A stretch of DNA of 64,000 nucleotides from Lachnospiraceae bacterium (GTDB lineage Bacteria; Bacillota; Clostridia; Lachnospirales; Lachnospiraceae): assembly GCA_015057585.1 (NCBI GenBank), contig SVEF01000002.1, positions 62,001 to 126,000 of the forward strand, in the 5' to 3' direction. Both the position numbers and the translations under genes were made by a program. The first letter of the stretch is position 1, and every line of letters starts with the position of its first letter. This document shows positions 2,929 to 28,714 of the stretch, in pieces. The notes beneath the pieces were generated by a model. It saw only the letters and a list, made by a program, of their open reading frames with translations. It searched no databases and was not told the origin of the DNA.

Positions 2929-5028
2929 CTATTTTGGCGCAAACGTTGCTTTTACAGTTGCTGCCTCCGTCATCGGTATCGTGATAGTGGCAGCAGTTTT
3001 GTCGGTGACATAGCTGCTGTCGGTTTCCCAACCGGTAAATTTAGCTCCTTCTGCAGGAATGGCAGTCAGGGTAACGGTCAGTTCAGGGAAATACATACTG
3101 GTAAAATCCTTTTCCAGATTCAGGGTACCGTTGTTTAATTTTACCGTGCCGAGAGTGTAGTCGGAGGTCTTTATTGTCAGACGCTTAATCGTACCGAGAC
3201 CAAATATTTTACGCATGAGGCTAGGAAAATTGGTGTAACGTCCGGTGATAAAGGTACGGACTTCTTCAATCCGGCCTTTTATATAGTCGGATGTGTTCTG
3301 CCAGGCAATCCAGTCCGGACCGAATCTTGCGAATGTGTCCGGCATAAGCCGGATGTAATCCGGTGCCATCTCATCCAACAATGTAGTGGCTGTGTCCGGT
3401 TTGAAATAGATGTTTCTCATGTCACAAAGTGCCAGTAAAAACTTCGTACGGAATTCTTTGTTTTGCATTAAGGAACGGAAAAGTTCAATTGGTGCATAGT
3501 GTTTTATGTTTTCTTCCCGCTCTTTTTTGGAAGAGGTCAGTCGGCCGGTAATATTATCTTCTTTATAATTGGAACCGCCACTGTATATGCCGCTGGAGTA
3601 GTCGGTATCGTATGCAGCCATACGCCATTTTCCGTCGGACCATGCGGTTGCGTGGTCGGCATTGCGTACGCGCCACATGCGCCAGTTGTTGTTGTCAAAC
3701 ATACTGTCCTGGTTGATGACATAGAGTTCAAAGGCACAGTATTCGGCAAAGGAATCCATGTCAAGAAGTTCACAGGCTTCTTTGTAATGACGGTCAACCG
3801 ACATATCCTGCCCGGTGATACAGAAGTACATCTCATGGAACAGACGGAGGTCATCTTCTTCTCCATCTTCGATTTCGCCTCTTTTTAGCAGGACGATGTT
3901 ATTGTTGTCGATGCCGTAGTTATTCTCAAAATAATTATCGCTGTAGTCTTCTGTGATGTCATACATGCCCCAATATTCGCCGTTGAGAAAAACGACACAA
4001 GGGGTAGAGGACTGGGTTTCAAAGTGACATTCGGCAACAAGGTTTTGTAAAAACGGATCGCGGAGTCTTCCAAAATTTGCATCGTTTCCGCCGATGCGGA
4101 GAACAAAGGATTTATATTTTGTGACCGGTCCGGTTTCGTCAGAACGGATATTCCCCGGAAGCAGGTCGAATTTCAGATTTTTCTTTCCGTATTCTTCTCG
4201 GGCAATCAGTTTTAAACTCTTTTGCGTACCGCCACGGGAGGCACCTCCCATAATCCGGACGCCCATATCTTGGATAAAACCTGCGGAACCATCCGCGGAC
4301 AGGTATTCTACGGAAATCTCACGCTCCCATTCTTTGCCACGCATGGAAAAGTTTCCGACGGCCTGCCAGCTTTCCAGATAAGCACGGGAAGGATCTTCTT
4401 TTAGCCAGTCGTCATAGGTTTTTCCGAGAACATAAATTCCGGTCTCATAGTCAAAGAAGTTATCTGCATTCGTAATCAGAGAGATGATAGGAACATCACC
4501 GTAGGATTTTTGCCGGTTGATTCCGACAAAATAGGAAGCGTTGGCAACCGGTGTTTTGGTACCGTCGGCAAGATAAGCAACCGCCCGGATGACAGTGCCC
4601 TTGGCAACAGGAGCCGGAGGAACATAGTTGCTGTCTGTACACAAGCCGGTGATAGCACTCAAAACATTTGCGGATCTTTTTTTGTCGGTAATGGTAAATG
4701 GGTCGGTGTACGGGGTGGAAGTTTTATCCGGGACCGAACCGTCTGTTGTATAATAAATGACGGCGCCTTCTTCGCTGCAGGTCAGTTCTAAATCGAATTT
4801 TTTGTCGTAAAAGCCGCTGTCAGCACTGAAAGCAACATGGGGACCGCTTGGAACTTCGGTCGGAGCGGGAGTTACCGGTGTATCCTGTGCTTCGGCTCCC
4901 GGAACGTTAGATCCTGCGGTAGTTGGTTCGTTAGCAGGGGGATCCGGTGTTTCCGTTGCCCCATTGCCACAACCGGATAGCAGGATTCCGATTAAAATAA
5001 GGAGTAAAAAATAAGATGTTTTTTTCAT
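2929..5028 (-). CDS. CotH-family secreted lipoprotein with chitobiase-like and Ig-like flanking domains
   Basis: A 699-residue lipoprotein. A signal peptide with lipobox LSGC puts the lipidated Cys at residue 20, and a Pro/Thr-rich spacer follows. Residues about 65-125 resemble a chitobiase/beta-hexosaminidase C-terminal module (YYTTDGSVPDKTS). Residues about 170-560 match the CotH kinase-like fold. The last 70-80 residues resemble an InlB-type beta repeat (FTGWETDSSYV). CotH of Bacillus is an atypical protein kinase that phosphorylates spore-coat proteins. For this surface-anchored, multi-domain form the substrate is unknown, and many Clostridia carry such proteins. It has a good RBS (AAAGGGG) and its own promoter, divergent from the next gene. 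Confidence 0.85.
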   Translation of the reverse strand: MKKTSYFLLLILIGILLSGCGNGATETPDPPANEPTTAGSNVPGAEAQDTPVTPAPTEVPSGPHVAFSADSGFYDKKFDLELTCSEEGAVIYYTTDGSVPDKTSTPYTDPFTITDKKRSANVLSAITGLCTDSNYVPPAPVAKGTVIRAVAYLADGTKTPVANASYFVGINRQKSYGDVPIISLITNADNFFDYETGIYVLGKTYDDWLKEDPSRAYLESWQAVGNFSMRGKEWEREISVEYLSADGSAGFIQDMGVRIMGGASRGGTQKSLKLIAREEYGKKNLKFDLLPGNIRSDETGPVTKYKSFVLRIGGNDANFGRLRDPFLQNLVAECHFETQSSTPCVVFLNGEYWGMYDITEDYSDNYFENNYGIDNNNIVLLKRGEIEDGEEDDLRLFHEMYFCITGQDMSVDRHYKEACELLDMDSFAEYCAFELYVINQDSMFDNNNWRMWRVRNADHATAWSDGKWRMAAYDTDYSSGIYSGGSNYKEDNITGRLTSSKKEREENIKHYAPIELFRSLMQNKEFRTKFLLALCDMRNIYFKPDTATTLLDEMAPDYIRLMPDTFARFGPDWIAWQNTSDYIKGRIEEVRTFITGRYTNFPSLMRKIFGLGTIKRLTIKTSDYTLGTVKLNNGTLNLEKDFTSMYFPELTVTLTAIPAEGAKFTGWETDSSYVTDKTAATITIPMTEAATVKATFAPK

Positions 5029-5071
5029 ATAGCCCCTTTCTGCCTCTCGTGCGGCACAGATGATTTCCTTT

Positions 5072-5100
5072 AGTATAGCATAGATAAAAAGTTATCACAA
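5072..5100 (-). promoter_or_regulatory. Sigma-A type promoter for the CotH lipoprotein gene
   Basis: Read on the - strand: TTGTGA, 17-bp spacer, TATACT, about 44 bases upstream of the start codon. It faces away from the promoter at 5138-5166, so the two genes are divergently transcribed. Confidence 0.6.
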
Positions 5101-5137
5101 TAATCATCCGTTGCGGTCTTTTGCCCAAAAAGAAAAC

Positions 5138-5166
5138 TTGTCTTTTTGAGTCGAATCGTGTAAAAT
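5138..5166 (+). promoter_or_regulatory. Sigma-A type promoter for the E2-like gene
   Basis: TTGTCT, 17-bp spacer, TAAAAT. The start codon at 5208 follows after an AT-rich leader with a GCAGGAG ribosome binding site. Confidence 0.6.
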
Positions 5167-5207
5167 AATTTATATTTATTAAAATTTTATAAAGGCAGGA
5201 GAACTTT

Positions 5208-6068
5208 ATGTTATTTAAAAGACCGGACGGCAGACCAATCCGTTCTGTGGCACCATTGCAGAAGATTATGCCGTATATTATGAAAACCCGTACGGATTCA
5301 ATGAATATGTTTGAGGATACGTTCCCTTGTGAAGCAATGGATGCGTATATTAAAGAAAAGGAAACAGACGGAATCAAGCTGGGGTATATGCATATCCTGA
5401 TTGCTGCGACGGTGCGTCTGATTGCTCTGCGTCCACAATTGAACCGTTTTATCATGAACGGAAAGATTTATGCGAGACCAAAAATCTGGGTAAGCTTTGT
5501 GGTGCACCCGACACTGGAAGATGGTAGTGTGGGGACAACTGTAAAACTGTGCTTTGAGGGAACAGAAACCATTCTTGAGATTGCAGAGAAAATCAATGAA
5601 GTCATCCGAAAGGAAACGACATTACGGAAGGGAGAAAACGGAACGGATAAGTTGGCAAGAGTGCTGACGTTTGTGCCGGGGCCACTTATTCGCCTGGTGG
5701 TTAATTTCCTTATGTTTTTGGACCGTCACAACATGCTTCCGAAGTTTGTAGTGGATTTGAGTCCGTTTCATACGTCATTTTTCCTTACAAACTTAAAATC
5801 GCTCGGTATCAGCCATGTTTTCCATCATGTATATGAATTTGGCACAACGGGGCTGTTTCTTGCCATGGGAAAAGAAAAAGTGGTTCCGGCAGTGAACAGT
5901 AAGGGTGAAATGATTCATGAAAAACGTATGGGGTTTGGTATGGTTTCGGACGAACGTTTCTGCGACGGGCTTTATTTTGCACTGTCATTGAGACAACTCC
6001 GTAAGTTTATGCAGAATCCAAAGATGCTGGAGACACCGTTAGAAAAGAAAGTAGAAGATATCAGATAA
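5208..6068 (+). CDS. Stand-alone E2 acyltransferase-like protein lacking the usual catalytic His
   Basis: A 286-residue protein with the fold pattern of the catalytic domain of 2-oxo-acid dehydrogenase E2 and chloramphenicol acetyltransferase. There is no lipoyl or peripheral-subunit-binding domain in front, and no E1 or E3 genes nearby. In true E2 enzymes the active site is DHRxxDG. Here the aligned stretch is DERFCDG (residues about 250-256), so Asp and Gly are kept but the catalytic His is Glu. From memory, related Clostridia proteins of this length carry the same DERxCDG form, which suggests a distinct subfamily rather than a broken copy. A hydrophobic segment near residues 150-166 is notable. 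The reaction and partner are unknown. It is monocistronic, with its own promoter and terminator. Confidence 0.75.
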   Translation: MLFKRPDGRPIRSVAPLQKIMPYIMKTRTDSMNMFEDTFPCEAMDAYIKEKETDGIKLGYMHILIAATVRLIALRPQLNRFIMNGKIYARPKIWVSFVVHPTLEDGSVGTTVKLCFEGTETILEIAEKINEVIRKETTLRKGENGTDKLARVLTFVPGPLIRLVVNFLMFLDRHNMLPKFVVDLSPFHTSFFLTNLKSLGISHVFHHVYEFGTTGLFLAMGKEKVVPAVNSKGEMIHEKRMGFGMVSDERFCDGLYFALSLRQLRKFMQNPKMLETPLEKKVEDIR

Positions 6069-26937: not shown

Positions 26938-26968
26938 TTGACTATGACGTCACGTAATAGTGTATACT
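26938..26968 (+). promoter_or_regulatory. MerR-type promoter with operator dyad in the spacer
   Basis: TTGACT, a 19-bp spacer, then TATACT. A spacer this long is the hallmark of promoters controlled by MerR proteins, which twist the DNA to bring the boxes in line. A near-perfect 21-bp dyad (26941-26961, ACTAT-GACGTCACGTA-ATAGT, one mismatched pair) fills the spacer. The MerR gene that follows should therefore regulate itself. Confidence 0.8.
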
Positions 26969-27013
26969 TGATGTAACATCAAAAAATACAGTATACACGA
27001 AAGAGGGGATAAC

Positions 27014-28714
27014 GTGAAATTACAGATTAGTGAACTTGCAAAACAGACCGGCGTGAGCGTCCGGACGCTGCATTATTATGATACGATTGGTCTTTTGAAG
27101 CCTGCAGAGGTGGATGCTGTTACCGGCTATCGTTTTTATGACGAGGCATCGATCGAAAAACTGAAAGAAATACTATATTATAGGGGAATGGATTTTCCGT
27201 TAAAGGAAATACAAGCACTGGTAGAAGAAAAAGAAATTGTGAAAAAGGGAAAACTGTTGGAGCGGCACAGACAGCTACAGCAGCAGAAAAAACAACTGGA
27301 ACAGGTGCTTTCCTCTGTCGAAGAAGAACTGGCAAAACCGATGGAACTTTCTCCTTGGTTTGATAAAATCCTGAAAGACTATAATTACAGCGGATTCTCC
27401 TATCGGGCAGGGGAAACGGATTTTTTCTGTGCCTGGGGGATGGCGGACTATGAGAATAATACGCCGTTTACTATAAACAGCCGATTTCCTGTCAGTATTC
27501 TGTCGAGTGATTTTATTGTATTTTGTACCCTGCTTTTCGAGGAGAAAGGTCTGCTTTGCAGGGAAGACCCAATTGCATCCTATGTGCCGGAGTGTAAGTA
27601 TGGCAAGGAGGTAAAAATAGGGCACCTTCTTGATATGACGTCAGGGTTTTCTGACGAACTGGTGGAAAAATGGCGCGCAGGCGAAATCCCTTACCGGGAC
27701 AATGTTTTTTTCAAGAAAAAAAGCTTAGAAGAAGTATTGGAAATCATCCATTATGCTCCACTGAAATTTCCCCCGGGCTCCCGGTTTGAACCTTGCGGGC
27801 TGAATACGGAACTTCTGGGAATTGTTCTGGAGAGGGCAGGAGGGACTTCTTTAGATGTCCTGCTCAGACAATATATTTTTGAACCTTTGGATATGCGGAA
27901 TACCTCTTATCTGGGGGAAGCGGATATCATTGGCTATTCGATGGCAACCCCGCCTGCACCGATTGCCTGGGACTACAACGATAACAATACCTCCTGGGGA
28001 TTGCTCAGCAGTGCAGAGGATTTGAAAAGATGGTTTGATGCGTTGCTGCAACATAAACTCCTTTCTGAAAAAGGGTATGAAATATTATTTTCGGCAGGAG
28101 AGAAAGAAGAGTTTTCCTGTGGTTTATATAGGAGCAGGAGTCCGTACCGCTTTCATGGTGACAGAAACGGAATTTGGTTTGATCTTATCTTTGATTTTGA
28201 AAAGAAAGGCGTTTGGCTCGATTTAAGAAACAAGACACCTCTGCCGGATAACAGGGAGCGCCTCATGTATTTTACCATTCCGGGATGTGATGGTGGAAAG
28301 GTGCGTTTAGAGGCATGGGAACTTGATACGGACACCTGTGTAAAAATAACTTCCATGAAAATCTTTGATAAGAATGCACGGGAACTGTGTTCTTTTCCCA
28401 GCTCTGAAAACGAGTATCTGCTTTTTGTGGAAAACCACGGAGAAAAGCGGCTTGCCGGTGAGTTTGTGAAAGATGAAGGCTATTATCTTTCACTGGATTT
28501 TGGAAAAATGCTTGGAGAAAGGTTTGATGCCGGTACCACATACATCCTGGAGGTGCATGCAGAGTGTGACTCGCCGCACGCTTCGCAGATTGGTGTGAAA
28601 TATTTCTGTGACGGCGAGGAACAGAGCATGGGGTATTATATTTTCTTTAATGAAATTCAAGCGTATGATTTGTTCCTGGAAGCATTGGGAAATGTGATGG
28701 AAGTGGTGTTATGA
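27014..28714 (+). CDS. MerR regulator fused to a beta-lactamase/PBP-like domain without catalytic residues
   Basis: A 566-residue fusion. Residues 1-70 are a MerR winged helix-turn-helix (ISELAKQTGVSVRTLHYYD) and residues 72-108 a dimerising coiled coil. Residues about 115-415 follow the serine beta-lactamase class C/PBP-like fold (HLLDMTSGFSD, PLDMRNTSYL, WGLLSSAEDLKRWFDAL). The Ser-x-x-Lys site is lost: the aligned stretch is RFPVSILSSDF without Lys. The Tyr-x-Asn motif is also missing (PCGLNTELLG). Residues about 420-566 form an extra beta-rich domain. I infer a ligand-sensing pseudoenzyme that controls transcription. GAGGGG precedes the start, which may be the GTG at 27014. Confidence 0.82.
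   Translation: MKLQISELAKQTGVSVRTLHYYDTIGLLKPAEVDAVTGYRFYDEASIEKLKEILYYRGMDFPLKEIQALVEEKEIVKKGKLLERHRQLQQQKKQLEQVLSSVEEELAKPMELSPWFDKILKDYNYSGFSYRAGETDFFCAWGMADYENNTPFTINSRFPVSILSSDFIVFCTLLFEEKGLLCREDPIASYVPECKYGKEVKIGHLLDMTSGFSDELVEKWRAGEIPYRDNVFFKKKSLEEVLEIIHYAPLKFPPGSRFEPCGLNTELLGIVLERAGGTSLDVLLRQYIFEPLDMRNTSYLGEADIIGYSMATPPAPIAWDYNDNNTSWGLLSSAEDLKRWFDALLQHKLLSEKGYEILFSAGEKEEFSCGLYRSRSPYRFHGDRNGIWFDLIFDFEKKGVWLDLRNKTPLPDNRERLMYFTIPGCDGGKVRLEAWELDTDTCVKITSMKIFDKNARELCSFPSSENEYLLFVENHGEKRLAGEFVKDEGYYLSLDFGKMLGERFDAGTTYILEVHAECDSPHASQIGVKYFCDGEEQSMGYYIFFNEIQAYDLFLEALGNVMEVVL

Follow-up and report, generated by a model that had tools for sequence, protein, structure and literature searches.

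A MerR regulator of the TipA class that looks as if its TipAS sensor had been exchanged for an inert beta-lactamase fold

Sensor types known in regulators of the MerR family include metal, TipAS and GyrI-like ones. A penicillin-recognising fold controls transcription in the BlaR1 and MecR1 systems with BlaI, where a membrane receptor is acylated by the drug and signals by proteolysis. The TipA class includes TipAL, Mta and SkgA, and the available text of a TipA study (PMC7762955) describes TipA proteins as minimal autoregulated drug-sensing systems, the unliganded TipA sensor blocking DNA binding. In BmrR and related regulators with a GyrI-like sensor, a ligand-bound dimer acts at a promoter with a 19-bp spacer, according to the excerpted text of PMC9909328. 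A literature search returned neither a fusion of MerR to a serine beta-lactamase nor a DNA-binding regulator with a beta-lactamase fold; one suggestive paper (PMC554113) concerns, in the portion at hand, a metallo-beta-lactamase.

The window, a 64-kb stretch of DNA from a Lachnospiraceae bacterium, contains on its forward strand a gene for a 566-residue protein (27014-28714) with a GTG start, no internal stops and a ribosome-binding site, gagggg, at 27003-27008. Residues 4-72 (27023-27229) form a MerR winged-helix DNA-binding domain, matched in Pfam by MerR_1 (PF13411, E 2.7e-16) and by PF00376 (E 1.4e-12), both above cut-off. Residues 73-106 (27230-27331) are taken by analogy as a dimerisation coiled coil, the matches to MtaN, TipAL and SkgA reaching residues 105-107. 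They are followed by an S12 domain of the beta-lactamase/DD-peptidase fold (residues 107-404, 27332-28225), assigned from a structural model, a fold search and the Pfam Beta-lactamase family (PF00144, residues 130-361, E 1.1e-27, 97.5 bits vs a cut-off of 27). A beta-sandwich-like region (405-548, 28226-28657) and a predicted C-terminal helix (549-566, 28658-28711; model helix 443-459) complete the protein. The original prediction of a MerR domain fused to a serine beta-lactamase-like domain is borne out by Pfam and by the single uninterrupted frame, and the additional beta-rich region that it described is present in the predicted models. Hydropathy peaks at 1.62 in 19-residue windows and there is no membrane-like stretch, so the protein is probably cytoplasmic; Pfam finds no M56 domain in it. 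In contrast to BlaR1 and MecR1, it would thus be a soluble one-component regulator that, to judge from its residues, could not accept an acyl group where the serine used to be.

By its sequence, the DNA-binding half is of the TipA class. Its best-matching solved relatives are 3qao, MtaN, TipAL and SkgA, all of the TipA/Mta sort, and those of the S12 part are penicillin-binding proteins, esterases and D-peptidases. The MerR domain is 48-50% identical to four others of the family and lies nearest to the relatives L035, L005 and L038 in a MerR-domain tree, a placement without starred support. When the protein and 33 MerR relatives were scanned, TipAS was carried by 31 of the 33 relatives and a GyrI-like domain by 1 of the 34 proteins. 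TipAS (PF07739) is absent from the fusion protein and, at E 0.001, from its own genome. Because TipAS is the sensor of nearly all the relatives and is missing here, the fusion looks like a TipA-type autoregulated sensor in which TipAS has been swapped for an inert beta-lactamase fold. With the TipA class it shares a MerR domain of the same group, the register and core of the operator, a promoter at its own gene and a sensor encoded in a single gene. Unlike that class, it carries a dead S12 domain and a beta-sandwich-like region instead of TipAS, and it has 566 residues rather than about 250. The ligand-bound dimer at a 19-bp-spaced promoter seen in BmrR and GyrI-like regulators may apply to the fusion by analogy, but the effector fold is a different one. 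For a short TipAS-like form of the protein there is no convincing internal start, the best being an ATG at codon 110 with a ribosome-site match of 4/7 at 12 nt.

Fold and former active site

The AlphaFold2 model of residues 107-566 has a mean pLDDT of 70.3, rising above 90 in the core helices. An alignment of the full-length protein (A3) was not used for folding, as it placed the N-termini of S12 proteins onto the MerR part. The model matches a penicillin-binding protein of B. halodurans (3tg9, Foldseek E 1e-16), and superposition with 3tg9_A gives a Z of 28.2 and 3.2 A over 300 residues; the R61 DD-peptidase, ClbP and a D-amino-acid amidase are further matches. Structure prediction and superposition, which had been proposed as a check on the domain, thus find the S12 fold retained.

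Modelled alone from its single sequence, the region of residues 405-548 forms a beta-sandwich-like unit (pLDDT 70.5) that resembles Ig-like and adhesin domains weakly (Z at most 9.4). At E 0.001 or below Foldseek matches it to nothing, so a family claim is withheld, and a search for sequence relatives of the region found none. One candidate relative of the C-terminus, L064 (E 6e-4), is by eye the end of an alpha-glucosidase-like protein and was dropped as a chance match. In the model of residues 107-566 the final helix (549-565, pLDDT below 50) lies within the range over which several S12 structures align, at their ends. The models therefore suggest that the sandwich may be inserted ahead of the helix that closes the beta-lactamase fold and not be an added tail.

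An alignment scan of bacterial genomes gave 20 S12 loci, and 20 S12 proteins encoded at 18 of them were aligned with residues 107-566. L054 (a long unrelated extension) and L060 (no blastp match at 1e-4) were left out, and L049 and L052 contribute two reading frames each. The former S-x-x-K motif (27497-27508, forward strand) now reads I162-L-S-S165: the nucleophile, Ser in 20/20 relatives, is Ile162 and the catalytic Lys, also present in 20/20, is Ser165. The former Y-x-N motif (27791-27799) reads P260-C-G262, with Pro260 in a column that holds Tyr in all 20 relatives and Gly262 in one that holds Asn in 14. In the former H-x-G motif, the equivalent of KTG (28151-28159), F380-H-G382 retains the glycine (20/20) and has lost the His (17/20). 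S-x-x-K is absent throughout the S12 domain, the sole copy in the protein being S46-K49 in the MerR part. The earlier reading had noted the absence of the Lys of Ser-x-x-Lys and of the Tyr-x-Asn motif; the alignment confirms both losses and widens them to the nucleophile Ser and the His. A Ser-Lys dyad restored elsewhere, or a different fold, had been named as what would overturn that reading, and alignment, motif scan and fold search found neither. These results support the view that the domain cannot carry out the S12 reaction, at least as far as its residues tell. Retention of the PF00144 fold, together with the variation of the motifs among some S12 proteins, could be taken to mean that the protein is still an active enzyme whose nucleophile has moved elsewhere, its MerR part regulating its own catalytic domain; set against I162, S165, P260 and F380 and an S12 domain devoid of S-x-x-K, this is very improbable.

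Conservation outside the active site is partly preserved. At least 80% of the 20 relatives agree in 32 columns; of these, the fusion protein keeps 21, including S210, G211 and G382, and loses 11. All of the kept columns lie among the 28 outside the active site (21/28), and the active-site columns 162, 165, 260 and 380 are all lost (4/4); the probability that the four would land by chance among the 11 lost is p=0.009. With 11/32 departures from the consensus, vs at most 9/32 in any of the relatives, part of the change in the domain may be general drift. A dead S12 domain might also serve as a module for protein-protein contact or oligomerisation, the signal arriving through a partner protein or the beta-sandwich and not through a ligand in the groove. 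A catalytic pocket in which Ile stands for Ser and Pro for Tyr is in keeping with such a role, as is the extra region with its weak Ig-like and adhesin matches. It is nonetheless unlikely, as S210, G211 and G382 are retained and the MerR multidrug regulators TipA and BmrR sense small molecules, according to the text available from PMC9909328 and PMC7762955.

The closest relatives of the sensor domain are three S12 serine hydrolases of Lachnospiraceae (L043, L044 and L045), about 28-31% identical. They appear from sequence to be active enzymes and, read by eye, have no signal peptide. Unlike the fusion protein, they have Ser, Lys, Tyr and His intact and carry neither a DNA-binding domain nor a beta-sandwich region. 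The reading frames in their flanks include no MerR partner. L043 comes from a named Lachnospiraceae record, and its protein agrees on reading with the S12 protein of L034 (genome G154, of the same family as the window), which makes Lachnospiraceae the probable family. In L045 (1926-6066) the hydrolase gene is divergent from a BlaI-like (PF03965) and BlaR1-like (PF05569) pair. In another genome (G419; L094, 4609-6732) an S12 hydrolase gene is followed, on its own strand, by a gene for a TipAS-bearing MerR protein, an unfused pairing of the two. The signal-less relatives, the BlaI/BlaR1-like pair and the S12-MerR pairing are hints to a ligand and nothing firmer.

Promoter and operator

The gene is preceded on the forward strand by a promoter (26938-26968) in which TTGACT (26938-26943) and TATACT (26963-26968) are separated by a 19-bp spacer. 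Within the spacer lies an operator dyad, ACTATgACGTcACGTaATAGT (26941-26961), with the core ACGTCACGT and 9 of 10 arm pairs matching; the dyad had been noted before and is real. The window contains nine dyads with 9/10 matching arm pairs and two 19-bp-spaced promoters (each box matching in at least 5/6 positions), and the promoter of the fusion gene is the one of the two that has a dyad. Promoter DNA of tipA, mta and skgA used in binding tests is printed in the TipA JBC paper (PMC7762955). Against these printed sequences, aligned ungapped from the -35 box, the fusion-gene promoter matches in 15, 18 and 16 of 26 bases, respectively, and the three match one another in 15-17 of 26. The core ACGTCACGT is common to the operator and the tipA promoter as printed. 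Of every position in the window, on either strand, the fusion-gene promoter ranks as the top TipA-class site.

A second copy of the operator is absent from the 3.0-Mb genome at up to 3 mismatches. This fits the earlier statement that no target other than the gene itself is adjacent, and the genome search proposed with it, for the dyad in other 19-bp-spaced promoters, finds at this limit the fusion gene's own promoter and no other. A looser promoter pattern gives four other sites in the genome at 2-3 mismatches, vs eight for a control pattern. The best of them (C30:105686) directly follows another MerR gene and has a different dyad; it was taken as belonging to that protein and set aside as a target. 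This other MerR protein of the same genome has 298 residues (L102, 1725-2717), with a 19-bp-spacer promoter and the dyad GACAgtaTGTC just downstream.

A second element lies near the expected transcription start. It is a perfect palindrome of 15 bp, TTGATGTaACATCAA (26968-26982), that is unique in the genome without mismatch and has one further match, at C14:48032, with one mismatch; the reading frames near that match gave no lead. A 9-bp inverted repeat, GTGTATACT/AGTATACAC (26960-26968 and 26990-26998), is also present, and palindrome and repeat overlap the -10 box and the expected start (26960-26998). They are perhaps a second operator. The position of the palindrome at the transcription start suggests that another regulator may act at this promoter too.

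Occurrence and genomic setting

The fusion was found in one species only, in searches of family, order, class and phylum samples and of genome contigs. Searches with the full protein took in 145 relatives (E up to 1e-15) and overlapping samples of the family (397, 1e-23), order (392, 1e-22), class (391, 1e-20) and phylum (398, 1e-22), the large samples scoring at most three candidates per genome, so that a diverged fusion could escape. Every match other than the window's own gene is to MerR alone or to S12 alone. Exact-peptide scans of genome_contigs and viral_contigs gave no relative of the fusion protein, and none of the 20 S12 loci in the alignment scan of genome_contigs is fused to MerR. 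A place covering 80% of the protein occurs in 0/268 matching plasmid records and 0/326 matching phage records. Among 126 loci, the window's own gene, in six copies, accounts for every frame matched by both halves. In viral sequences, neither the S12 alignment nor a single MerR domain gave any match, and a scan with the MerR alignment gave 14 loci, mostly TipA-like MerR by eye.

Three close congeners (G001-G003, tgt 94-97% identical) have no fusion gene before tgt, so the place that the gene occupies, next to a tRNA gene, is variable, and its horizontal arrival is likely. The stretch before tgt in all three holds a small HPr-like gene and, in G003, also tRNA-Trp and a DegV-like gene (names given by eye). 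In G003 the DegV-like and HPr-like genes follow tRNA-Trp, and the order radA - tRNA-Trp - tgt found around the fusion is common to this congener. The 3' end of tRNA-Trp in G001 has an integrase-like frame immediately upstream. The tRNA-Trp next to tgt has the look of an integration site of the genus (L091, about 4300-5518, turned so that tgt is on the plus strand; L090, 4525-6132).

Occurrence in one species, the lack of such a gene in the three congeners and the loss of 11/32 conserved columns, vs at most 9/32 in the relatives, would fit a recent fusion that is nonfunctional or decaying, an evolutionary accident with no sensing role. Such an accident is rather improbable for 566 stop-free codons that are preceded by a ribosome site and by the window's top-ranking promoter for TipA-class operators. 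The losses also take in all four active-site columns, and the divergence (nearest relatives at 31% for S12 and about 50% for MerR) is large for a very recent event. The failure of the searches to find a second example might likewise point to an assembly chimera of two unrelated genes. This is scarcely credible for a contiguous frame with a G+C content of 0.439 in a window of 0.455, set in a radA - tRNA-Trp - tgt order shared with G003 and having a regulatory site of the matching kind ahead of the MerR start.

Proposed mechanism and its meaning

The explanation we favour, with moderate confidence, is that the protein is a TipA-class MerR autoregulator in which a catalytically dead S12 domain, of the class C beta-lactamase/DD-peptidase fold, has taken the place of TipAS and acts as ligand receptor. 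A dimer would bind the dyad in its own promoter, where the -35 and -10 boxes on either side are badly spaced, and this promoter would be silent or weak without ligand. Non-covalent binding of a small molecule in the groove of the former active site would alter the dimer, and the altered dimer would, by analogy with TipA and BmrR, bind or bend the 19-bp spacer and raise transcription of its own gene. The output may be the protein itself, which would then both sense the ligand and soak it up; autoregulation with a sink is probable because a second operator was not found at up to 3 mismatches. The analysis shows the domain anatomy, the lost catalytic residues, a DNA-binding domain and an own-gene promoter of the TipA class and a genome in which the search gave no second operator, and it supports the placement of the S12 fold where MerR proteins keep their sensor. 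From these we infer that the gene regulates itself, that a ligand binds in the groove, that bending activates the promoter and that the protein sequesters the ligand.

What this adds to the original prediction is the TipA-class ancestry, the match to TipA-class promoters, the loss of the Ser and the occurrence in one species. Counted against the favoured explanation are the single known member, the active-looking S12 relatives, the want of a convincing internal start for a short form, the second palindrome and the 11/32 changed columns, and Ile and Pro may have closed the old groove. The candidate ligands, a beta-lactam, a cell-wall peptide or a D-amino-acid compound, are guesses from the fold. 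That the retired penicillin-recognising fold is a reversible cytoplasmic receptor for one of these on a TipA chassis, sensor and sink at once and working without acylation, is a possibility to be held tentatively.

Operator, promoter and sensor lie together on one 1.8-kb piece of DNA, which makes a direct test possible, and the protein could become a soluble biosensor for molecules bound by penicillin-recognising proteins. If the reading is true, beta-lactams or wall fragments would be sensed in the cytoplasm without acylation, and a dead serine beta-lactamase fold serving as a MerR sensor would show an enzyme fold turning into a receptor.
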